Positions 6,029 to 27,519 of a stretch of 28,094 nucleotides of DNA are shown here, one piece after another. The translations under genes were made by a program, and so were the position numbers. The stretch comes from Peptococcaceae bacterium BRH_c23 (GTDB lineage Bacteria > Bacillota_B > Desulfitobacteriia > Desulfitobacteriales > Desulfitobacteriaceae), in contig LADV01000302.1 of the NCBI GenBank assembly GCA_000961805.1, positions 1-28,094 on the forward strand, in the 5' to 3' direction. The first letter of the stretch is position 1. Each line of letters starts with the position of its first letter. Below the pieces are notes generated by a model. That model was given only the letters and a program-made list of their open reading frames with translations, searched no databases and was not told where the DNA came from.

Positions 6029-7144
6029 GTGAAAATGTTTGAATATATGGGTAAGGAAGTTTTCGCCAAGTTCGCCCTTCCGGTACCAAAGGGGAGAATG
6101 GTTACCAATCCGGATGAGGCGTTCCGGGTAGCAACGGAAATTGGGGGTCCTGTGGTGATCAAGTCCCAGGTTCTGTCCGGTAAGCGGGGTAAAGCTGGTG
6201 GTATTAAATTTGCCGATCATCCGGAAGGAGCGAGAGCTGCTGCTCAGGAACTGTTGGGCATGACCATCCAGGGCCTAGCGGTAGATATTCTTCTTGTGGA
6301 AGAAAAACTGCAAATTGATCGAGAACTATATTTGTCCATCACCATCGACGCAGCGACTAAAATGCCGGTGCTTATTGCATCGGCCCACGGTGGTATGGAT
6401 ATTGAAGAAGTTGCTGAGGAGTACATTGTTAAGAAGCATATCGATGTAGAACTTGGTATGCAAGGATTCATCGCCAACGATGTTGTCAGAAGAATGGGTA
6501 TACCTTTGAATACCCCCCAAGGCAAGGAATTGGTCAAGATCATAAAAACCTTGTACCAAATCTTTACTCAAAAAGATGCTGATCTAGTGGAAATAAATCC
6601 GTTAGTGATCAGTGGAGACCACGTCATTGCTGCAGATGCTAAGGTGACGATAGACGACGAGGCGCTCTATCGTCAATTAGATTTACCTAGGGTGGAAGAA
6701 CGTACCTCTGCCGAAAAGATAGCTCATGACCTGGGTCTTTCTTTTGTGGAACTGGACGGAGACATCGGAGTAATGGCCAATGGTGCCGGTATTACTATGG
6801 GTACACTGGATACTCTCACCTATTACGGAGGAAAACCGGCCAACTTCCTTGACGCGGGCGGCGGAACAGGAGAGGAAGGCACGGCCAAGGCGCTTGAACT
6901 CATCTTGTCTAGAAACCCTAAGTCTATCATCATTAACATATTTGGGGGCATTACCCGTTGCGATGATGTGGCAAGAGCCTTTGCCTCCGTCAAAAAGAAT
7001 AGAGGGATCCCGGTTCCAGTGGTAATTCGCCTGGTGGGCACTAACCAAGAAGCCGGACGAGCTATACTGAAGGAAGTCGGCATTGAGGCCTATGACTTCA
7101 TGCAGGATGCTGCTAAGAAAGCAGTTGAATTGGCCAATTCGTAG
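6029..7144 (+). CDS. sucC: succinate-CoA ligase (ADP-forming) beta subunit
   Basis: A 371-aa ATP-grasp subunit of succinyl-CoA synthetase. The N-terminal ATP-grasp fold begins with the variant M-F-E-Y-M-G-K-E. The C-terminal ligase domain has the family stretches G-G-G-T-G-E-E-G-T-A-K-A-L and N-I-F-G-G-I-T-R-C-D. Slightly shorter than the usual 385-390 aa. The GTG start at 6029 has AGGGGAG about 11 bases upstream; ATG at 6035 is the alternative. In this direction it would convert succinyl-CoA, made by the kor enzyme, to succinate plus ATP. It has the normal partner sucD 135 bases downstream. The stop codon lies inside a heptamer tandem repeat. Confidence 0.92.
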   Translation: MKMFEYMGKEVFAKFALPVPKGRMVTNPDEAFRVATEIGGPVVIKSQVLSGKRGKAGGIKFADHPEGARAAAQELLGMTIQGLAVDILLVEEKLQIDRELYLSITIDAATKMPVLIASAHGGMDIEEVAEEYIVKKHIDVELGMQGFIANDVVRRMGIPLNTPQGKELVKIIKTLYQIFTQKDADLVEINPLVISGDHVIAADAKVTIDDEALYRQLDLPRVEERTSAEKIAHDLGLSFVELDGDIGVMANGAGITMGTLDTLTYYGGKPANFLDAGGGTGEEGTAKALELILSRNPKSIIINIFGGITRCDDVARAFASVKKNRGIPVPVVIRLVGTNQEAGRAILKEVGIEAYDFMQDAAKKAVELANS

Positions 7145-7175
7145 TTCGTAGTTCGTAGTTCGTAGTTCGTAGTTC
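7141..7175. repeat. five tandem copies of the heptamer GTAGTTC covering the sucC stop codon
   Basis: Five perfect GTAGTTC units in a row, preceded by a partial unit TTC (7138-7140) that supplies the last sucC codon; the first unit supplies the TAG stop. Decayed units rich in TTCG, CGAAG and GGTTC continue to about 7250. The array fills most of the gap between sucC and sucD. Seven-base units put stop codons in every frame and are prone to slippage. Confidence 0.9.
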
Positions 7176-7279
7176 GATGCACGAAGTACGAGATTCAGGT
7201 TCGAGGTTCACACATCACACAGCGTAAATCGCACTTCGAGTTCGTGGTGAACAAGTTTTGACAAGGAGGGCTAGTTGAA

Positions 7280-17244: not shown

Positions 17245-19038
17245 ATGATGGCGGTGGACGAACAGAAGCAAGTTTTAGGTATAGTTAGACCAAGTGATTT
17301 GGCATCTGATGCCAGTCTAAGCGGTTCAAAGTTGCAAGAACGAATCCGTAACATATTTGATGTAGCTAATAGTGGAATAATTGTCGTGGACGAACATGGA
17401 ATTATTGTCATTGCCAATCGTGTCGTGGCTGATATCGTTGGCGTAGCTAATAATGAACTTGTTGGTCGACTGATAACTGATGTCATTCCGAATTCTTTAT
17501 TACCGAAGATTCTTGAATCTGGGCAAGCATTATACGGTCAGAAAATTGTCATCAATGCCATACCGGTGGTCGCGAATTACTCACCCATGCTTGAAACGGG
17601 GGTTATTCGTAACGCAGTATGTGTTTTCCATGATTTATCCAGTATAGACCATCTTTCGAAGGAACTAAACTCTGTTAAACAACTGTTCAGAGAATATGAA
17701 GCAATAATTAATTCTTCCTACGATGGGATCTTTATCACTGACGGCAACGGTCTTGTCTTACGACTCAACAACGCATACGAACGTATAACTGGTATACAAG
17801 CCAACGAAGTGGTCGGTAAGACAATGAAACAGTTGGTTAGTGAAGGCGTTTATGATCAGTCAGCAACCTTGCGGGTTATTGAGAAGAGACATACTATTAC
17901 CATCGCCCAAACAATTAAACGTACCAACAAGCAGATACTGGTGACAGGTAATCCAGTTTTTGACGAAGAGGGTAAGTTATCCCGTGTTGTCACTAATGTT
18001 CGCGATATTACAGAACTTAACTCTTTGCAAAATCAGTTACAAGAAACAAAAGAACAGACATTGAAATATGAAGCCGAATTAAACCATCTACGCTCATTAC
18101 AAATTCAAGATACAGGAATTATCTTTGGCAGTGAATTAATGGCTCGGGCTATACAATTAGCGATGAAGGTCGCATGCGTTGATACCACTGTATTGATAAC
18201 AGGAGAGTCGGGTACAGGTAAAGAACTATTTGCTAAATTGATTCATGAACAGGGCAAAGGCATTAGTAAGCCGTTTATTAAAATTAATTGTGCGGCCATA
18301 CCTGAACAACTATTAGAATCGGAATTGTTTGGCTATGAGGGAGGAGCCTTTACTGGTGCCAAAAAAGAAGGTAAGCCAGGTCTTTTGGAATTGGCCCATA
18401 AAGGGACACTATTTTTGGATGAAATGGGTGAGATGCCTTTACTACTGCAGGTTAAGCTTTTGCGCGCAATTCAGGAGAAAGAAATTGTAAGGGTTGGAAG
18501 CACCAAAACTATACAAATAAATGTAAAGATCATCACTGCAACCAATCGAGATCTTGCTAGAATGGTTGACAACGGTACTTTTCGCGAAGATCTTTTTTAC
18601 CGTTTGATGGTTGTACCCATTCAAGTTCCTCCTTTAAGGGAGCGAAAGGAAGATATTCCTTTATTGGTTAAGTATATTGTCGATAAGTTAAATAAACGAT
18701 TTGCTTTTAATCATAGGATTTCGCCGCATTTGCTTGATAAACTGTCAGAACACTCCTGGCCGGGAAACGTACGTGAATTAGAAAATGTCCTTGAACGTAT
18801 GATGATTACATCATCTGAGGAGGAGCTTACTGTTAATTTGCTACCAGATACGATACGACATCAAGCTATATTACCGAAGCGCGGGACAAAATTAAAGGAC
18901 GCAGTGGCCCAAACTGAAGCTTATATATTAGAAGAAACATATAAAGAATATCAATCATGGCAAAAGGTGGCGGAAGTTTTAGGAGTTGATCGCACAACCA
19001 TTTTTCGAAAATTAGGTAAGTATGGTTTGAAAAAATAA
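17245..19038 (+). CDS. sigma-54-dependent PAS/AAA+/Fis transcriptional activator
   Basis: A 597-aa enhancer-binding protein. Residues 1-20 look like the tail of a CBS domain. PAS domains follow at about 32-135 and 148-258, then a short coiled coil, then the sigma-54 AAA+ domain with Walker A G-E-S-G-T-G-K-E at 320-327, the sigma-54 contact loop G-A-F-T-G-A at 367-372 and Walker B L-F-L-D-E at 389-393. A Fis-type helix-turn-helix lies at about 560-595. It starts at ATG 17245 or 17248, with GAGG five bases before the first. It lies upstream of, and in line with, the 4-hydroxybutyrate genes, whose promoter is of the -24/-12 type, so it is the likely activator. The ligand sensed by the PAS domains is unknown. 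Confidence 0.92.
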   Translation: MMAVDEQKQVLGIVRPSDLASDASLSGSKLQERIRNIFDVANSGIIVVDEHGIIVIANRVVADIVGVANNELVGRLITDVIPNSLLPKILESGQALYGQKIVINAIPVVANYSPMLETGVIRNAVCVFHDLSSIDHLSKELNSVKQLFREYEAIINSSYDGIFITDGNGLVLRLNNAYERITGIQANEVVGKTMKQLVSEGVYDQSATLRVIEKRHTITIAQTIKRTNKQILVTGNPVFDEEGKLSRVVTNVRDITELNSLQNQLQETKEQTLKYEAELNHLRSLQIQDTGIIFGSELMARAIQLAMKVACVDTTVLITGESGTGKELFAKLIHEQGKGISKPFIKINCAAIPEQLLESELFGYEGGAFTGAKKEGKPGLLELAHKGTLFLDEMGEMPLLLQVKLLRAIQEKEIVRVGSTKTIQINVKIITATNRDLARMVDNGTFREDLFYRLMVVPIQVPPLRERKEDIPLLVKYIVDKLNKRFAFNHRISPHLLDKLSEHSWPGNVRELENVLERMMITSSEEELTVNLLPDTIRHQAILPKRGTKLKDAVAQTEAYILEETYKEYQSWQKVAEVLGVDRTTIFRKLGKYGLKK

Positions 19039-19398: not shown

Positions 19399-20871
19399 AT
19401 GAGTCTACTCGGTCCTGTTCGCAAGCGAAAAGTAGGTCAAGTTCAACCTTATATCCCGTTTGGTCCTTTCCAGCTTAGACTACCCATTTATCACTATCGC
19501 TTTGAAATTCCCGACTTCATTCAAGGATTACTCATGTGTGCGGTTTGTCTGGGCGCAATCCCCTTGCTTCAAGAATACCTCGGTATGCCATTTGAGGTCG
19601 CACTCACTATTGTTATTTTAAACGGTTTCTTCTATTTATTACATTCACATTTGGGAGATCCTATCGTACCCGGCTGGATTACACCGGCTATTCCCTTATT
19701 GTTGATCTATCTGAAAACATTCCCTGAAGGTGTTCCCAGAATGCATGCTTTAATTGCTTTTGAACTGGAACTTGGTCTATTCGCATTCTTTCTTGGGGCT
19801 ACTGGTTTAGCTAAAAAATTTGTTGATATTGTACCTGATGCCCTAAAATCCGGAATATTACTGGGAGCTGGTATTGCAGCTATCAAGCTGGTGTTTGACA
19901 AAGGGCAGAGGTTTGATACCTATCCTTGGACTATTACGATTGCCATTGGTCTGGCATTCTATCTTTTATTCTCCAATCACTTTAAAAAACTAAGAGAAGA
20001 TCATAAACCACTTAAGTTTATTTCAGACTTAGGTTTAGTACCAGCACTCTTACTGGCGATTATTATCGCACCTTTATTAGGTGAATTACCGTGGCCCAAT
20101 GTTCAGTGGGGTTTTACCGTACCACAGTTTTATACTTTGTTTACCGAATGGACTCCTTTTTCTGCACGTATCGGGTGGCCTGCCTTAAGCTTGTTCGTAA
20201 GTTCGGCACCCCTAGTAATTTCGGTCTATATTGTCCTATTTGGTGATTTGATTCAGGCTGAAGCACTGATTGATGAGGCCAGAGAATTCCGGAATGGGGA
20301 TGAAAATGTACATTTTGACCCAAATCGTAACAACATCATAGTAGGTATTCGTAATATGTCAATGTCCATGTTAGGACCTGACTTAACTATGTGCGGACCA
20401 ATATGGGCAGCAATGCAGGTCGTCACTTGCGAGCGTTATAAACAAGGGCCTGAAGCTATGGATAGTTTGACCGGTGGAGTCGCATCATTCCGGTTGGGAA
20501 CTTTTACAGGGTATTTCTTAACGCCAATTGTCACTTTAGTAAAACCTATTTTGCCGATTGCGCTTGCCCTGACAATGCTGGTACAAGGTTATGTTTCCGT
20601 CCGGGTTGGAGTATTAAAAGCCCGCACCTTCAATGACCTAGGTATAGCGGGGATAGTGGCAGCAGTATTAATTTCTCGTGGTGCAGGGTATGCTTTGGCC
20701 GTTGGTACTGTCCTATGTGTGCTTATTTTTGGTAGAGACTTCTTCCGCAACTGGCCGAATTATGATAAGAAAAAAGACCCGGTATTTAACAGTAGAATTG
20801 AAGCGGAAGAGGTACCCGAGTTCAAAAGCAGAATTGAAGTTGAAGAGGTTACCCAATTCAAAAATATTTAA
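19399..20871 (+). CDS. multi-spanning permease, xanthine/uracil (NCS2/SLC23)-like
   Basis: A 490-aa integral membrane protein with roughly 11-13 hydrophobic segments between residues 33 and 450, a basic N-terminus and a hydrophilic charged tail. The fold pattern (P-G-W-I-T-P-A-I-P near 93 and the conserved late segment with M-L-G-P-D-L-T-M-C-G-P) resembles the NCS2/SulP transporter superfamily, but I cannot place it in a characterised subfamily. It starts at ATG with AAAGGGAG eight bases upstream. It is the first gene after the sigma-54 promoter and precedes abfD, so its cargo may be 4-hydroxybutyrate or a related C4 acid rather than a nucleobase; this is inferred from context only. The last 28 residues hold a tandem 12-residue repeat. 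Confidence 0.75.
   Translation: MSLLGPVRKRKVGQVQPYIPFGPFQLRLPIYHYRFEIPDFIQGLLMCAVCLGAIPLLQEYLGMPFEVALTIVILNGFFYLLHSHLGDPIVPGWITPAIPLLLIYLKTFPEGVPRMHALIAFELELGLFAFFLGATGLAKKFVDIVPDALKSGILLGAGIAAIKLVFDKGQRFDTYPWTITIAIGLAFYLLFSNHFKKLREDHKPLKFISDLGLVPALLLAIIIAPLLGELPWPNVQWGFTVPQFYTLFTEWTPFSARIGWPALSLFVSSAPLVISVYIVLFGDLIQAEALIDEAREFRNGDENVHFDPNRNNIIVGIRNMSMSMLGPDLTMCGPIWAAMQVVTCERYKQGPEAMDSLTGGVASFRLGTFTGYFLTPIVTLVKPILPIALALTMLVQGYVSVRVGVLKARTFNDLGIAGIVAAVLISRGAGYALAVGTVLCVLIFGRDFFRNWPNYDKKKDPVFNSRIEAEEVPEFKSRIEVEEVTQFKNI
20785..20856 (+). repeat. in-frame 36-base tandem duplication at the permease C-terminus
   Basis: Two 12-codon units, F-N-S-R-I-E-A-E-E-V-P-E and F-K-S-R-I-E-V-E-E-V-T-Q, followed by a third start F-K-N-I at the stop. 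The units differ at several bases, so the duplication is not brand new. The tail is acidic and cytoplasmic by prediction. Confidence 0.85.
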
Positions 20872-20918: not shown

Positions 20919-22367
20919 ATGAAAACTGCTGCAGAGTATGAAGAAAGTTTGCGAAATCTTAATTTTAAAATTTACCTTCAAGGCGAACTGGTGGATAATA
21001 CGGTTGATCACCCCATAATCAGGCCTTCGATGAATTCTGTCAAAGCCACTTATGCCTTTGCCGAGGATCCACAGTATGAGGAATTAATGACAGCTACGTC
21101 TCATCTTACTGGAAAAAAGATTAACCGTTTTTGCCATTTGCATCAAAGCACCGATGATCTAGTCAAAAAAGTAAAAATGCAGCGCCTCTTAGGGCAAAAA
21201 ACAGCTGCCTGTTTCCAGCGCTGTGTAGGGATGGATGCCATTAATGCAGTTGACAGTGTTACTTTTGAAATGGACCAAAAACTGGGAACAACTTATCACG
21301 ATAGATTCACAAAGTTTTTAGTAAATATGCAGGAAGAAGATTGGACTGTAGATGGTGCAATGACTGATCCTAAAGGGGATCGAAATCTATCGCCCAGCAA
21401 ACAGGCAGATCCGGATCTGTTTTTGCATGTTGTTGAGAAAAGGGAAGACGGTATTGTCGTTCGGGGTGCAAAAGCCCATCAAACAGGGGCGATCAATTCT
21501 CACTGGATTCTTGTTATGCCTACTATCGCTATGGGAAAAGATGATGCTGACTATGCTGTTTCTTTTGTCGCCCCAGCAGATGCAGAAGGCATAGTCTATA
21601 TCTATGGTCGCCAGTCTTGTGATACTCGCAAACTAGAGGGCGGAGATATTGATGTGGGAAATAAACAGTTCGGTGGACATGAAGCATTGATGGTGTTTGA
21701 GAATGTATTCATTCCCTGGGAAAATGTGTTCATGTGTGGGGAAACCGAATTCAGCGGTGCTTTGGTCGAGCGGTTTGCTGGTTATCATCGTCAAAGCTAT
21801 GGTGGGTGCAAAGTCGGCGTAGGTGATGTCTTGATTGGGGCGACAGCACTGGCCGCTGATTATAACGGCGCAGCTAAAGCGTCTCACGTCAAAGATAAAC
21901 TTATAGAAATGATGCATCTTAATGAAACATTATACTCCTGCGGGATTGCCTGTTCAGCGGAAGGCAATAAAACAGCATCAGGCACTTACATTATTAATTT
22001 ATTATTAGCCAATGTTTGTAAACAAAACGTAACTCGTTTCCCATATGAAATTGCCCGCTTGGCTGAAGATGTCGCTGGTGGCTTAATGGTTACTATGCCA
22101 TCTGAAAAAGATCTACATCATCCGGAAATCGGCAAGATCGTTGAAAAATATTTCTGTGGGGTGGCCTCAGTTCCAACTGAAGACCGCATGCGCATCCTCC
22201 GTTTAATTGAAAATATCACCTTAGGTACTGCTGCAGTTGGTTACCGGACTGAATCTATGCATGGCGCAGGTTCGCCACAGGCTCAGCGCATCATGATCTC
22301 TCGCCAGGGTAATCTTGAACAGAAAAAAGAACTGGCTAAAGCCATTGCAGGGATTGCTACGAAATAA
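20919..22367 (+). CDS. abfD: 4-hydroxybutyryl-CoA dehydratase / vinylacetyl-CoA delta-isomerase
   Basis: A 482-aa FAD and [4Fe-4S] enzyme of the 4-hydroxyphenylacetate 3-hydroxylase superfamily that dehydrates 4-hydroxybutyryl-CoA to crotonyl-CoA through a ketyl radical. The cluster ligands known from Clostridium aminobutyricum AbfD (C99, C103, H292, C299) have clear counterparts here at C98 and C102 (C-F-Q-R-C) and at H290 and C297 (Y-H-R-Q-S-Y-G-G-C). This separates it from plain flavin hydroxylases of the family. ATG start with AAGGAGG eight bases upstream. Oxygen-sensitive cytoplasmic enzyme; the product would enter butyrate-type metabolism or beta-oxidation. Confidence 0.94.
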   Translation: MKTAAEYEESLRNLNFKIYLQGELVDNTVDHPIIRPSMNSVKATYAFAEDPQYEELMTATSHLTGKKINRFCHLHQSTDDLVKKVKMQRLLGQKTAACFQRCVGMDAINAVDSVTFEMDQKLGTTYHDRFTKFLVNMQEEDWTVDGAMTDPKGDRNLSPSKQADPDLFLHVVEKREDGIVVRGAKAHQTGAINSHWILVMPTIAMGKDDADYAVSFVAPADAEGIVYIYGRQSCDTRKLEGGDIDVGNKQFGGHEALMVFENVFIPWENVFMCGETEFSGALVERFAGYHRQSYGGCKVGVGDVLIGATALAADYNGAAKASHVKDKLIEMMHLNETLYSCGIACSAEGNKTASGTYIINLLLANVCKQNVTRFPYEIARLAEDVAGGLMVTMPSEKDLHHPEIGKIVEKYFCGVASVPTEDRMRILRLIENITLGTAAVGYRTESMHGAGSPQAQRIMISRQGNLEQKKELAKAIAGIATK

Positions 22368-22385: not shown

Positions 22386-22697
22386 GTGAAGATAACTATG
22401 TTGGATAAGAAGGTCAGCATTAGTTTCTGCGGTGGATGCAATCCATTGATTAATCGAGGTGAGGTTGCTAACGAGGTACAAGAGTTACTTTCTGCAACGG
22501 GTATTCAGGTTACCTTTAACAGTTTTGATACTGATTTGGTGATTTATCTTAGTGGGTGTTCTGCCAATTGTGCTCAAAGGTATGGTCAGAGAGTAAGCCC
22601 GTGTGTCGTTGTAGCTGCAGCAACTATAGATGCCATGGAGGTTGACGAAAAGCAACTTGTCGATCAAATAGTAATAAGAGTGAGGAATCTTTTATGA
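22386..22697 (+). CDS. small cysteine-rich protein (CGGCNP motif), function unknown
   Basis: A 103-aa soluble protein with F-C-G-G-C-N-P near residue 14, a second pair in S-G-C-S-A-N-C-A near residue 57 and a further cysteine in S-P-C-V-V. Five spaced cysteines suggest metal or Fe-S binding or thiol chemistry. Starts with GTG, with AAGGA seven bases upstream; ATG at 22398 is the alternative. It ends in an ATGA overlap with abfT and follows abfD by 18 bases, so all three are almost certainly co-transcribed and coupled. A role in maturing or reactivating the Fe-S dehydratase is an attractive guess with no direct support. Confidence 0.8.
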   Translation: MKITMLDKKVSISFCGGCNPLINRGEVANEVQELLSATGIQVTFNSFDTDLVIYLSGCSANCAQRYGQRVSPCVVVAAATIDAMEVDEKQLVDQIVIRVRNLL

Positions 22698-23989
22698 ACG
22701 ATTGGAGAAGTGTTTATCAAGATAAGATCGTAAGTGCTGATCAAGCTGTGGAAAATATTAAAACCGGTCATAGAGTAGTCATAGGGCATGCTTGTGGTGA
22801 ACCGCCTGCCTTGATTGAAGCCTTGGTGAATCGTGCACCGGAAGTTAATAATGTGGAAATCGTTCATATGGTAGCCATGGGACCTGCCAAATATGCTCAA
22901 CCAGAATTAGAGAAGAGTTTTCGTCATAATGGTCTGTTTATCGGAGCACCAACGCGAAAGGCTCTTGAGGAGAAAAGAGCGGATTATACACCATGCTTTT
23001 TTTCCGAAATCCCACGGTTATTTAAGGATAATAGTCTGCCTGTCGATGTGGCATTGATTCAGCTTACACCGCCTGACGAGCAGGGGTTTTGTAGTTTTGG
23101 TATCTCGGTTGATTATACTCAGGCAGCTGCGGAGTGTGCTCAACTGGTCATCGCGCAGATGAATAATAATATGCCCCGAACCGGTGGGAGCAAAATTCAT
23201 CTGGATGAACTAGACTTTATTGTGGAAAAGGATGAACCATTAATTGAGCTTAAACCACCGAAAATTGGGGAAGTGGAAAAAGCTATCGGTGAAAACGTGG
23301 CGACATTGGTTCAAGATGGAGCTACGCTTCAGTTAGGGATAGGGGCAATCCCAGATGCTGTATTGCTGTTTTTAAATGATAAAAAGGATTTAGGTATTCA
23401 CTCGGAAATGTTTTCTGACGGCGTGGTGGCTTTAGCTGAGGCAGGTGTCATTACGAATAAAAAGAAATCTATCAATCCTGGAAAATTTATTGCCACCTTC
23501 CTGATGGGAACACGTAAACTGTATGATTTTGTGGATAATAATCCAGATGTCGTGATACTTCCTGTCAACTATGTCAATGATCCTTATGTGATCGGGCAAC
23601 ATGAAAACATGGTATCGATTAATTCAGCTATACAGGTGGACTTAATGGGCCAGGTCAATGCTGAAATGATTGGTTCTAGGCAATTTAGCGCAGTGGGTGG
23701 ACAGGTTGACTTTGTCCGGGGAGCAAGTCGTTCACTAAAAGGGATTTCGATCATCGCTTTACCTGCAACGGCGTCGGGTGGTAAGATATCACGAATTACC
23801 TGTGATCTTGACCGAGGGGCGGCGGTAACAACTTCACGCAATGACGTCCAGTACGTTGTTACAGAATACGGCATAGTTAATTTACGGGGCAAGTGCCTTC
23901 GAGAACGGGCTGAGGCATTAATTAGTATCTCTCATCCAGATTTTAGGACGGGTTTGATTAACGACGCTAAGGAAAAAGGAATTCTCTGA
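22694..23989 (+). CDS. abfT: 4-hydroxybutyrate CoA-transferase
   Basis: A 431-aa CoA-transferase of the acetyl-CoA hydrolase/transferase family. The catalytic glutamate lies in G-I-H-S-E-M-F-S-D-G, at residue 238, the same number as in the C. aminobutyricum enzyme. The CoA-binding loop Q-L-G-I-G-A-I-P lies at 213-220. It moves CoA from acetyl-CoA or butyryl-CoA to 4-hydroxybutyrate, providing the substrate of AbfD. ATG start overlapping the previous stop by 4 bases. Related transferases act on other short acids; the adjacent abfD makes 4-hydroxybutyrate the best call. No terminator with a strong T run follows; a structured leader does. Confidence 0.93.
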   Translation: MNDWRSVYQDKIVSADQAVENIKTGHRVVIGHACGEPPALIEALVNRAPEVNNVEIVHMVAMGPAKYAQPELEKSFRHNGLFIGAPTRKALEEKRADYTPCFFSEIPRLFKDNSLPVDVALIQLTPPDEQGFCSFGISVDYTQAAAECAQLVIAQMNNNMPRTGGSKIHLDELDFIVEKDEPLIELKPPKIGEVEKAIGENVATLVQDGATLQLGIGAIPDAVLLFLNDKKDLGIHSEMFSDGVVALAEAGVITNKKKSINPGKFIATFLMGTRKLYDFVDNNPDVVILPVNYVNDPYVIGQHENMVSINSAIQVDLMGQVNAEMIGSRQFSAVGGQVDFVRGASRSLKGISIIALPATASGGKISRITCDLDRGAAVTTSRNDVQYVVTEYGIVNLRGKCLRERAEALISISHPDFRTGLINDAKEKGIL

Positions 23990-24116: not shown

Positions 24117-24761
24117 GTGCGTTATACTTTCTGGGAAATCTTGAAAAGAGGGTACCTTATGCAAGCCATTTCATTTATACAAGATGTACTGGATTCTTTT
24201 AAGATCCCTTATAAACGTTATGTAGGTAGGCATACCTTGAGATTTAATCGTCGAGCTATAAAAAAGGCGGCTAATGATTCTCAAAAGAGGTTATGGCTCA
24301 CTGCTAGTATTGCAGCAGAAGAATTAGTAGTAGCTTTGCTTCAACTGGATAATAAGATTAATGTGGAACCGCTAAATAAAAGACTATTAAGAAAAAAGAT
24401 CGATAAGAAGCAAGTCCTCTCTGTTTTACATGCTTATTTATCGGCTGTTGTCGTTCTAATCAGCACTTATAAAGAACAAATTTTAGAAAGCACCGCTATG
24501 TCGGAACAAAAATTTTTACAGGACTGGTGTTCGGTATTTGAATATCAACTGGAAGATATGAAAGTATTTGACGAAATGATGTTGACGGCATACAGCCAAT
24601 TTGGATCTATCGGACTGATCAGGGAAGCAGGAGAAATTATTGTTGACAATTTTTATCAAGAGACTAGCGGACTAACGCAAAAAGAAATTTTGGTACTTGA
24701 GGGTATTTTGTTAAAGGATGTGTCAGCAATACTTCAGTATCTTAAACTACCGTCTATCTAA
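24117..24761 (+). CDS. uncharacterised mostly helical protein
   Basis: A 214-aa soluble protein, rich in Leu, Lys and Glu, with no signal peptide or clear membrane segment. It has a basic stretch near residues 45-60 and several predicted amphipathic helices. I do not recognise the family. GTG at 24117 has AAGGAG (24107-24112) four bases upstream; ATG at 24159 with AGAGGG is a second credible start (200 aa). It follows abfT after 127 bases and precedes the selenoprotein gene by 24 bases, the latter with its own GGAGG, so these two are probably one transcript. Confidence 0.65.
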   Translation: MRYTFWEILKRGYLMQAISFIQDVLDSFKIPYKRYVGRHTLRFNRRAIKKAANDSQKRLWLTASIAAEELVVALLQLDNKINVEPLNKRLLRKKIDKKQVLSVLHAYLSAVVVLISTYKEQILESTAMSEQKFLQDWCSVFEYQLEDMKVFDEMMLTAYSQFGSIGLIREAGEIIVDNFYQETSGLTQKEILVLEGILLKDVSAILQYLKLPSI

Positions 24762-24785
24762 TACATTTAAACTGTTGGAGGTTTT

Positions 24786-25118
24786 ATGTTTATCTTAGAC
24801 ATGGATGCCGCACAATATATAAAGTTAAAGTCAGGGTCCGTGGTTATTAACCTGGAACTCCAACCTACTGCCGGTGGCTGACCATGCTCAGGTGATAGCG
24901 TAACAGGTAGTTACGTACCGAAAATATATATCGGAGAGCCGAATATTGAAGAGCGATATAAATATAAGGTTATGCAGGTAGAGACAATTATTATATACTA
25001 TCCGTCCAGACTAAAAATTAAAAATGGTTTTATTGCAATTAGAATTACCTTGAAAAAGATGTTGTTCGTTAAGTGGTTAGAGTTAGAAGGAGCTATGGGG
25101 ATAGTCTGTGAACATTAA
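24786..25118 (+). CDS. CC/Se-motif (HesB-like) selenoprotein, UGA at codon 32 read as selenocysteine
   Basis: A 110-residue frame from ATG 24786 to TAA 25116-25118, broken only by TGA at 24879-24881. GGAGG lies four bases before the ATG. The TGA falls in G-G-U-P-C-S-G, giving a U-x-C redox pair, and coding character continues for 78 codons beyond it. The overall pattern matches the small bacterial CC/Se (HesB-like) selenoprotein family as I know it: N-terminal D-x-x-A-x-x-Y-I, the GGU motif, then a C-terminal basic segment ending in F-V-K-W-L-E-L-E-G. A hairpin with a G-containing loop follows 23 bases after the TGA. Function is unproven; iron-sulfur handling or thiol redox is suggested by the HesB resemblance. 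A conventional gene call would stop at codon 31 or skip the gene. A plain nonsense mutation is the alternative but is less likely given the hairpin. Confidence 0.85.
24891..24919 (+). promoter_or_regulatory. bacterial SECIS element for selenocysteine insertion
   Basis: CGTAAC (24899-24904) pairs perfectly with GTTACG (24910-24915) around the loop AGGTA, extended by a G-T pair. A lower GGT/ACC helix (24891-24893 with 24917-24919) is set off by a GATA bulge. The loop starts 23 bases after the UGA and has G at its second position, matching the bacterial SECIS rules for distance, stem length and loop. It lies inside the coding sequence, as bacterial elements do. Confidence 0.8.
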
Positions 25119-25794: not shown

Positions 25795-26535
25795 ATGGTT
25801 GAAATAGCAGTGACTAAAAGTAGAGAATCGCTGGGAGAGAAGCAGATCAGGGGATGTGAGGTTAGGCTAGATCACGTCAGTAAACAATACACCCAGGGCA
25901 AGGAACAGGTAGTAGGTCTGGATAACGTGAGTATAGAAGTCAAAGCGGGCGAATTCCTAGCAATTATGGGGGCAAGCGGGTCAGGCAAGTCCACACTCTT
26001 AAATTTAGTGGCCGGCTTAGACAAGCCAAGTCAAGGGGATATTTTCCTCAACAACCGGAAAATTTCCGACTGGAAGGATAATCAGCTCACCCTGTTTCGT
26101 CGCCAGGAAATCGGTTTTATCTTTCAGTTGTTCAATCTGATCCCCACCTTAAGTGCCGAGGAGAATGCCGCCTTGCCTTTACTGATGGCCGGCCAGCCCC
26201 GCTCCGTTTGGCAACCCAAAGTGAGTGACTGGCTGAAGCGGGTGGATCTTGAAGGCCGACGTAAACACTATCCAGCAGAATTATCAGGGGGCCAAATGCA
26301 AAGGATAGCCATCATACGGGCTCTCATTCACCAACCTTCCCTTATTTTGGCCGATGAACCTACGGGTAACCTGGATTCTAAAACCGGGGATCAGATGCTC
26401 TTTATACTAAAAGAAATTACTGAAGACCTGGGAGTTACAGTCATTATGGTCACTCATGATCCCATGGTTGCCGCGTACGGTCACGCTCTGATCAGCCTGA
26501 AAGACGGACGAATCCTTGATTCGACAGCGAGGTGA
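25795..26535 (+). CDS. ABC transporter ATP-binding protein (MacB/LolD type)
   Basis: A 246-aa nucleotide-binding subunit with an intact Walker A G-A-S-G-S-G-K-S-T at 59-67, Q-loop F-I-F-Q-L-F-N-L-I-P-T-L, signature L-S-G-G-Q-M-Q-R and Walker B L-I-L-A-D-E-P-T-G-N-L-D. It carries about 20 extra residues at its N-terminus compared with typical members. ATG start with AAAGGA upstream. Its stop overlaps the permease start (GTGA-type junction at 26532). It would energise an FtsX/MacB-type exporter, but the paired permease is broken, so it may no longer work as an exporter here. Confidence 0.9.
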   Translation: MVEIAVTKSRESLGEKQIRGCEVRLDHVSKQYTQGKEQVVGLDNVSIEVKAGEFLAIMGASGSGKSTLLNLVAGLDKPSQGDIFLNNRKISDWKDNQLTLFRRQEIGFIFQLFNLIPTLSAEENAALPLLMAGQPRSVWQPKVSDWLKRVDLEGRRKHYPAELSGGQMQRIAIIRALIHQPSLILADEPTGNLDSKTGDQMLFILKEITEDLGVTVIMVTHDPMVAAYGHALISLKDGRILDSTAR

Positions 26536-27519
26536 GAGAGTTGTTAAGCATAAAGTTAGCTCTAGCCTATTTTCGCCGTCGAAAATTGCGGGCGATTTTA
26601 AATACGCTGAGTGTGGCAGTAGCGATAGCGGCGTTGGTGGCTTTGCAAGGGTTGAATGTTACGGGGGAAGCCGGTAAAAGTGGGGAATATCTGGCAGATC
26701 CAGACTATGCTGGGAATGCAGGATTTTACCCTGATCGGAATCTTGGAAGACAGCGGAGTGGCCCAGACCAATGGCGGTGCCGTGGTCTTTATGCCCTTGA
26801 CAACGGCTCAGAAGGCTTTCGAGCTGGAGGGCAAATTATCGTACATCAGCATTGTCCTGCAAAACCCGGACAATGTACTGGCGGTGCAAAAAGCCTTACA
26901 GGAAAGCTTGGGTAATAGAGTAGAAGTGCTCACCCCCTTGGGACGAAACGGGAATAAAGACAAAATGTTGGGTTTCATTAAGAGCCTTAATAATGTTTAT
27001 GGGTTCATGGGCTTGTTCCTGGCTTTGTATGTCATGTATAACTCCATGAGAGTTGCGGTATCCGAACAACGTCGTCAACTTGGAATCCTGCGTGCCTTGG
27101 GTTGGCGACGCTGGGAAATCCATAAATTAATCATAGCCCAATCAATATTAATCGGTGTAATTGGCAGTACGCTGGGGCTCCTCTTAGGGACATATTTGGC
27201 TCAAGGTTTGCTCAGCACAGTGAGCGATACTTTGAACGAAGTGTTCAAGGTTTCTATTCCCCGCATTCGTTTTACGATGCTTAATTACGCCATAATATGG
27301 CTAACGGGCGTGCTGTCATGCCTTTTCTCTGCTTGGCTACCCGCTTGGAAGGCTGCCAATATCGCGCCGATCGAGGCCATGAACAGCCGATACTCGATCC
27401 CTTGGGCCAAAAACATTGGCGTTGCCATCGTCATGGCTTTGGTCGTTGGTCTGAGTACAGTGTACCCAGCTTGGTTGGCCTCAAAGGTTGACCCGGTCAG
27501 AGCGTTGCGTTCAGAGTAA
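26532..27519 (+). pseudogene. decayed FtsX/MacB-type ABC permease
   Basis: The frame starting at GTG 26532 encodes a normal N-terminus (basic segment, first membrane helix with S-V-A-V-A-I-A-A-L-V-A-L), then turns to nonsense after L-N-V-T. Permease sequence resumes in another frame from about 26660 (V-K-V-G-N-I-W, then F-T-L-I-G-I-L-E-D) to the stop at 27519. Most of the extracytoplasmic domain between is missing. After the first FtsX domain (W-K-A-A-N-I-A-P-I-E-A-M), the sequence runs almost at once into a second-domain ending (V-Y-P-A-W-L-A-S-K-V-D-P-V-R-A-L-R-S-E). So the second core domain appears to be deleted too. Intact relatives of this architecture run to about 750-850 aa; about 330 codons remain here. 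The 287-aa downstream frame (ATG 26656) is open but incomplete. Confidence 0.8.

Follow-up and report, generated by a model that had tools for sequence, protein, structure and literature searches.

Clostridium aminobutyricum reportedly carries a 4-hydroxybutyrate (γ-aminobutyrate/succinate) fermentation cluster with abfD and abfT, the genes of 4-hydroxybutyryl-coenzyme A (CoA) dehydratase/vinylacetyl-CoA isomerase (AbfD) and 4-hydroxybutyrate CoA-transferase (AbfT). AbfD contains a [4Fe-4S] cluster and flavin adenine dinucleotide and is oxygen-sensitive. The A-type iron–sulfur (Fe-S) carriers IscA, SufA and ErpA (PF01521) possess three cysteines, of which a C-terminal Cys-x-Cys supplies two. 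In a 2026 review, the motif of the CC/Se selenoprotein family (NF041239) is given as CxxU and its type member is called a hypothetical protein, while the motif of the HesB-like selenoproteins (TIGR01911) is tabulated as UxGP (PMC13188914). Here we describe a gene at positions 24786–25118 of the forward strand of contig LADV01000302.1 of Peptococcaceae bacterium BRH_c23, which was analysed as a stretch of 28,094 nucleotides (the window). Its product, which almost certainly contains selenocysteine (Sec, U) at residue 32 as judged by comparison with its relatives, belongs to the known CC/Se family; new is the apparent placement of the gene at the end of a 4-hydroxybutyrate operon, in a clade with Sec/Cys exchange at two sites.

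The gene comprises 110 codons and a TAA stop. The ribosome binding site GGAGG (24777–24781) lies 4 nt ahead of the ATG, and the sole in-frame TGA (codon 32, 24879–24881) stands in the motif G-G-U-P-C-S-G, where Cys34 (24885–24887) is the partner of Sec32. Coordinates, frame and binding site all agree with the preliminary description of this DNA, which had pointed to an overlooked selenoprotein frame here; the open reading frame list of the window has no conventional frame of at least 80 amino acids over the interval. Taken alone, the frame is no better than chance, and three observations would suit a pseudogene or chance frame with TGA as an ordinary stop. It is one of eight single-TGA read-through frames of similar size in the window, TGA ends six of the 23 window genes, and in folding the 51-nt window sequence does not stand out from its dinucleotide shuffles, of which 47 of 200 did as well (z −0.76). 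What lifts the frame beyond chance is that relatives keep it on both sides of the TGA, with a third-position bias and frozen codons under a hairpin, and by these results the chance frame is already contradicted; we regard it as extremely improbable.

The relatives were obtained by a genome scan with one genome per species, which gave seven loci: four in Desulfosporosinus, two in soil Bacillota metagenome-assembled genomes (MAGs) and one in a Spirochaetaceae MAG (loci and genomes are denoted below by L and G numbers). TGA is present at the same codon in all seven, the protein is conserved on both sides of it, and in each of the five pairs compared the differences from the window sequence past the TGA lean to third positions. 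The family resemblance that had been claimed to continue past the TGA is thus borne out. In a family alignment of 42 relatives (A7), at least 90% of the residue-32 column is Cys or Sec.

A search of protein entries returned eight relatives, four of full length with Trp printed at codon 32 and four shortened ones that start past the TGA, among them the named relative P0007, deposited as a 64-residue fragment. The four Trp copies are what one would expect if TGA were read as tryptophan (genetic code 4) or by leaky readthrough. The protein entries suggest that this Trp is the product of gene calling with TGA as Trp; TGA is a stop in six of the 23 window genes, where TGG is used 89 times; in the five operon relatives that lack TGA at site 32 the residue is always Cys and never Trp; and SelA and SelB are present in most relatives. 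Reading as tryptophan is accordingly given hardly any credence. The preliminary description had named in advance a finding that would speak against the gene, close homologues lacking both Cys and Sec at this codon; none turned up among those examined.

The TGA is followed by a hairpin (24898–24916, plus strand) that starts 16 nt past it and has a 7-bp stem, GCGTAAC/GTTACGT, identified from folds, codon constraint and pairing. The loop AGGTA (24905–24909) begins exactly 23 bases past the TGA, as had been stated earlier, and is closed by the upper stem CGTAAC/GTTACG, the seventh pair being G-U. Bacterial selenocysteine insertion sequence (SECIS) elements are described as stem-loops shortly past the UGA with a G in a small apical loop (PMC1088965), and the window hairpin fits this description. 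The lower helix and bulge, also proposed before, are present in the window's own fold (3 bp, GGT/ACC, with a 4-nt bulge) but not conserved: in single-sequence folds of 14 clade sequences including the window they recur only in L001 and L089, which leaves the upper hairpin as the sole conserved element. No Rfam match was obtained for the hairpin.

Constraint on the hairpin was evaluated in 12 clade sequences, the 14 minus two near copies. Mean synonymous codon identity in codons 38–43, which lie under the hairpin, was 0.884 versus 0.494 outside, a value reached in 1 of 100,000 column permutations. The mean hairpin energy was −7.66 kcal/mol versus −3.30 kcal/mol (standard deviation 0.52) for codon shuffles, none of 1000 being as low. 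Tested singly, 10 of the 12 sequences fell below 0.05, with L007 at 0.058 and L088 at 0.215. Across 10 distinct rows, every one of the 70 pair cells holds a standard pair. One pair has changed in a compensatory way from GC to AU (L005), and L007 is among the sequences with G-U changes; shuffling only the pairs was not decisive (56 of 500).

Selenium machinery was sought in the genomes of the relatives. Fourteen were examined for SelA, namely 13 whose clade member is coded with Sec and G364, whose member has Cys. It was found in 13, the exception being G007, the spirochaete MAG, and exceeded the cut-off in one of 14 controls. SelB was over the cut-off in five of seven relative genomes in one set, where G001 (a partial match) and G007 missed it, and in seven of seven in a second set, with two of 14 controls passing. 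A tRNA-Sec scored above the cut-off in six of seven relative genomes, five of them at 65 bits or more, with a model that also passes in five of 14 controls and at multiple places within some genomes. The tRNA-Sec of G007 is weak evidence, since its best score of 47.8 bits barely passes and the model passes in controls.

Taken together, comparison of the relatives makes it nearly certain that 24786–25118 is a functional selenoprotein gene with UGA at codon 32 decoded as selenocysteine. Its proposed membership of the CC/Se family is upheld by an NF041239 score above the cut-off, the TGA in all seven loci, the constrained hairpin, the Sec machinery of relatives and the Cys that other relatives have at the site. 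The pass is narrow (40.6 bits, cut-off 40). All 42 relatives in A7 match NF041239 at E ≤ 0.1, which adds little because most of them were collected with that model. The window protein shares with the family the Sec/Cys column and a similar length, and differs from it in barely clearing the cut-off, in a longer loop past the motif, in U-x-C instead of the reviewed CxxU, and in an operon with AbfD, AbfT and p214, a predicted helical protein described below. The family itself is widespread: at E ≤ 0.001, the model detects members in 41 of the order's 73 genomes (31 above the cut-off) and in 90 of 398 genomes of a phylum sample (86 above the cut-off), but in none of 14 controls. Absence calls in this search are soft, a known gene of G005 having been missed.

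From the collected loci 111 CC/Se members were extracted, with motifs including GGU, UC, UxC, CC, CU and UU. In the family tree (89 columns, many forks without resolution) the window protein belongs to a 15-row clade (support 99/97) made up of 11 U-x-C, three U-C and one C-C-C protein. The earlier suggestion that the U-x-C form may be a subtype therefore holds for the clade but not for the spacing as its hallmark, since other motifs occur inside the clade and U-x-C also occurs outside it. The outside occurrence is a second U-x-C group, L090, L091, L092, L102 and L109 (GGUKCS/GGURCS), which stands apart in the tree. Two further observations were made in the family: L104–L108, one clade with support 97/96, have two adjacent TGA codons (U-U), and the CC/Se matches of L123 (G449:C13:28701-34967) are broken by TAA or TAG, not TGA, and are possibly decayed copies.

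The description "HesB-like" is only partly upheld. The predicted fold has IscA/SufA as its top matches, whereas the TIGR01911 model gives no match to the window protein up to E 1 and matches one of 42 relatives at E 0.011. The protein resembles HesB-like selenoproteins in having Sec in a Gly-rich loop and probably, as far as the window prediction goes, in its fold class, and it has no U-x-G-P motif. PF01521 likewise gives no match to the window protein up to E 1, while seven of 42 relatives match it at E ≤ 0.1 (best 8.8e-5). Unlike IscA, SufA and ErpA, which have one Cys in the loop, the window protein has Sec-x-Cys there and lacks the C-terminal Cys-x-Cys; when clade members were aligned with Escherichia coli IscA, they showed no conservation of a Cys pair at the C terminus. 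The structure model places U-x-C in a loop, predicted with low confidence, that lies between its first and second long strands.

Comparison of the operon versions places Sec and Cys differently at sites 32 and 34. The pair is U/C in the window, L001, L002, G014, L004 and L007, C/C in G364, G486 and G475, and C/U in G476 and G480, so that Cys34 of the window protein aligns with Sec in the last two. The exact C-x-C spacing occurs only in G486; G364, G475, G476 and G480 have a motif shortened by one residue, so that their sites are assigned from the alignment. The C-U genes of G476 and G480 have a predicted hairpin past the TGA (−17.0 and −13.0 kcal/mol, energies without a shuffle comparison). 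Among the p214 genomes of the order of G364, SelA was detected in G364, G475, G476 and G480 (in the last split across two contigs) but not in G486, G479 or G488; G486 is the one with Cys-x-Cys at the motif. With U-x-C, U-C, C-x-C and C-U forms in the subclade, Sec/Cys exchange affects the two sites of a single motif, an argument for joint action of the pair.

By gene order, the selenoprotein gene is the last of a putative 4-hydroxybutyrate operon whose members all lie ahead of it on the same strand. A PAS/sigma-54-dependent transcription activator (17245–19038; Pfam), in the same place in L002 and G014, is followed by a permease that is kept in the operon (19399–20871; only a weak Pfam match, MFS_MOT1), AbfD (20919–22367; PDB 1u8v, 776.8 bits), p103, a Cys-rich protein of 103 amino acids to which no family was given and which L002, L007 and G014 also have in their operons (22386–22697), and AbfT (22694–23989; PDB 3eh7, E 2.8e-162; 3gk7, E 1e-140). 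Next comes p214 (24117–24761; likely start ATG 24159), predicted to be all-helical, whose stop lies 24 nt before the selenoprotein gene; its model (predicted local distance difference test 88.7) gave no fold match and the protein no family match. The window thus resembles the Clostridium aminobutyricum type in its adjacent AbfD and AbfT relatives and differs from it by the addition of p103, p214 and the selenoprotein. We know of no described 4-hydroxybutyrate cluster with any of these three, and a literature search of partial coverage found no paper on the U-x-C subclade or its operon.

p214 is rare. Three of the order's 73 genomes have it (G001, G002 and G014), always directly before the U-x-C gene, as do three of the 398 genomes of the phylum sample, one match there being doubtful. 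The window gene order recurs in L002 and in G014, the latter with an inserted NifU-domain gene, and L007, a whole 3.2-kb contig, reads p103-AbfT-p214-UxC. L004 and L006 start at p214-UxC and continue into a butyrate-type gene series, in which thiolase and acyl-CoA dehydrogenase of L004 were recognised by family matches and Etf, hydroxybutyryl-CoA dehydrogenase and crotonase by eye. p214 also occurs in seven of 61 genomes of the order of G364, which is probably Negativicutes because these p214 proteins are 42–78% identical to Megasphaera and Caecibacter proteins. At six of these seven loci p214 is accompanied by AbfT, the permease and an iron-containing alcohol dehydrogenase; five of the six contigs extend far enough to cover AbfD, and all five have it. 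The seventh locus, G479, has AbfD, AbfT, permease and p214. A CC/Se gene follows the dehydrogenase in five of the seven; none was found at G479 and G488 in the 12 and 8 kb examined. By tblastn, NifU-domain genes lie near the cluster in six genomes of this order. Versions of the cluster occur in Desulfosporosinus relatives, in an order that is probably Negativicutes and in a spirochaete MAG. Where the contig suffices, AbfT is present in 11 of 11 and AbfD in nine of nine p214 loci; L001, L004 and L006 end at p214 and are uninformative on both. As a separate observation, the Cys-bearing relative of G364 (L129:11703-14738) adjoins a set of Se_S_carrier, TusA, sulfur-transport and class-V aminotransferase-family genes.

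Considered as a whole, we think it probable that the gene encodes a selenoprotein with an IscA/SufA-like predicted fold which closes the operon and maintains AbfD together with p214. Codon reading, hairpin constraint, Sec/Cys exchange and operon come from comparison and the fold from prediction, while substrate and chemistry are what we infer. In the proposed mechanism, UGA at codon 32 would be read as selenocysteine with the help of the downstream hairpin, and the U-x-C protein and p214 would maintain the oxygen-sensitive [4Fe-4S] flavoenzyme AbfD of their own operon, either as carrier or repair factor for its Fe-S cluster or by holding it in a reduced state, with the selenol-thiol pair as a metal- or redox-active site. 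Such Fe-S or redox maintenance is favoured because of the IscA-like fold, the Fe-S enzyme in the operon and the NifU-domain genes inside or near the cluster. Taken by itself, maintenance of AbfD remains a tentative assignment of the selenoprotein's role.

Several results weigh against this assignment. Two redox-type residues two apart, subject to Cys/Sec exchange, and the missing C-terminal ligands of IscA would suit a plain thiol/selenol oxidoreductase, for example one reduced by thioredoxin that removes peroxides or disulfides, with the IscA-like fold as a mere scaffold. Thioredoxin is, moreover, the commonest neighbour of the wider family, at six of 56 proteins scanned (56 of 84 same-strand neighbours listed; a count of proteins, not of independent lineages). 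The likeness to A-type Fe-S carriers in the predicted fold, and weakly in the profile, speaks against such an enzyme, as do the Fe-S enzyme in the operon and the NifU-domain gene in several relatives; even so, a thioredoxin-linked oxidoreductase is nearly as likely as Fe-S or redox maintenance of AbfD. The gene may also be a true selenoprotein gene that lies in the 4-hydroxybutyrate operon incidentally and has a general family role apart from AbfD. Clade members without p214 or AbfD beside them (L003, L005, L084, L085, L086 and L088) would agree with this, that of L086/L131 (L131:12533-15181) lying 63 nt past a molybdenum hydroxylase gene; at L087 the contig ends on the upstream side and its AbfD context is not readable. 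Furthermore, AbfD (at least 85% identity) occurs in nine of the 73 genomes of the order, three of which have a recorded U-x-C gene, a record in which absences are soft. On the other side, the same cluster with p214 recurs in distant hosts with changed gene order, and AbfT accompanies p214 wherever the contig allows; an incidental location is therefore judged unlikely.

Some other features of the window were recorded. When the sucCD stretch was compared with 45 genomes from the family of Desulfosporosinus sp. UBA5188, 33 gave matches, some of them only via a short repeat; the best identities were 84–85% for sucC or sucD and 77% for the stretch as a whole. From these matches we regard the host as a Desulfosporosinus-like member of that family. 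The repeat (7138–7177, unit about TTCGTAG) is microsatellite-like and lies between the two genes, and many genomes of that family have similar short stretches scattered through them. An ATP-binding cassette permease (26532–27519; FtsX-like by eye) is spread over two overlapping frames and appears disrupted, and a transposase-like open reading frame, recognised by eye, occupies 40–1380 at the left end of the window.

A gene of a kind usually missed by annotation appears here at the end of an operon for 4-hydroxybutyrate fermentation, and the lesson for annotation is that such genes are dropped or cut, the P0007 fragment being an example. In the widest form of our proposal, which we hold to be possible but doubtful, the U-x-C protein and p214 would constitute an operon-borne, selenium-using upkeep system dedicated to AbfD, a [4Fe-4S] radical dehydratase, in distant anaerobes, whose active pair has in the course of evolution shifted its selenium from one position to the other or given it up. 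Within the sampled phylum the CC/Se family is widespread, and the subclade links it to a defined pathway and to the enzyme AbfD, so that its role becomes directly testable.
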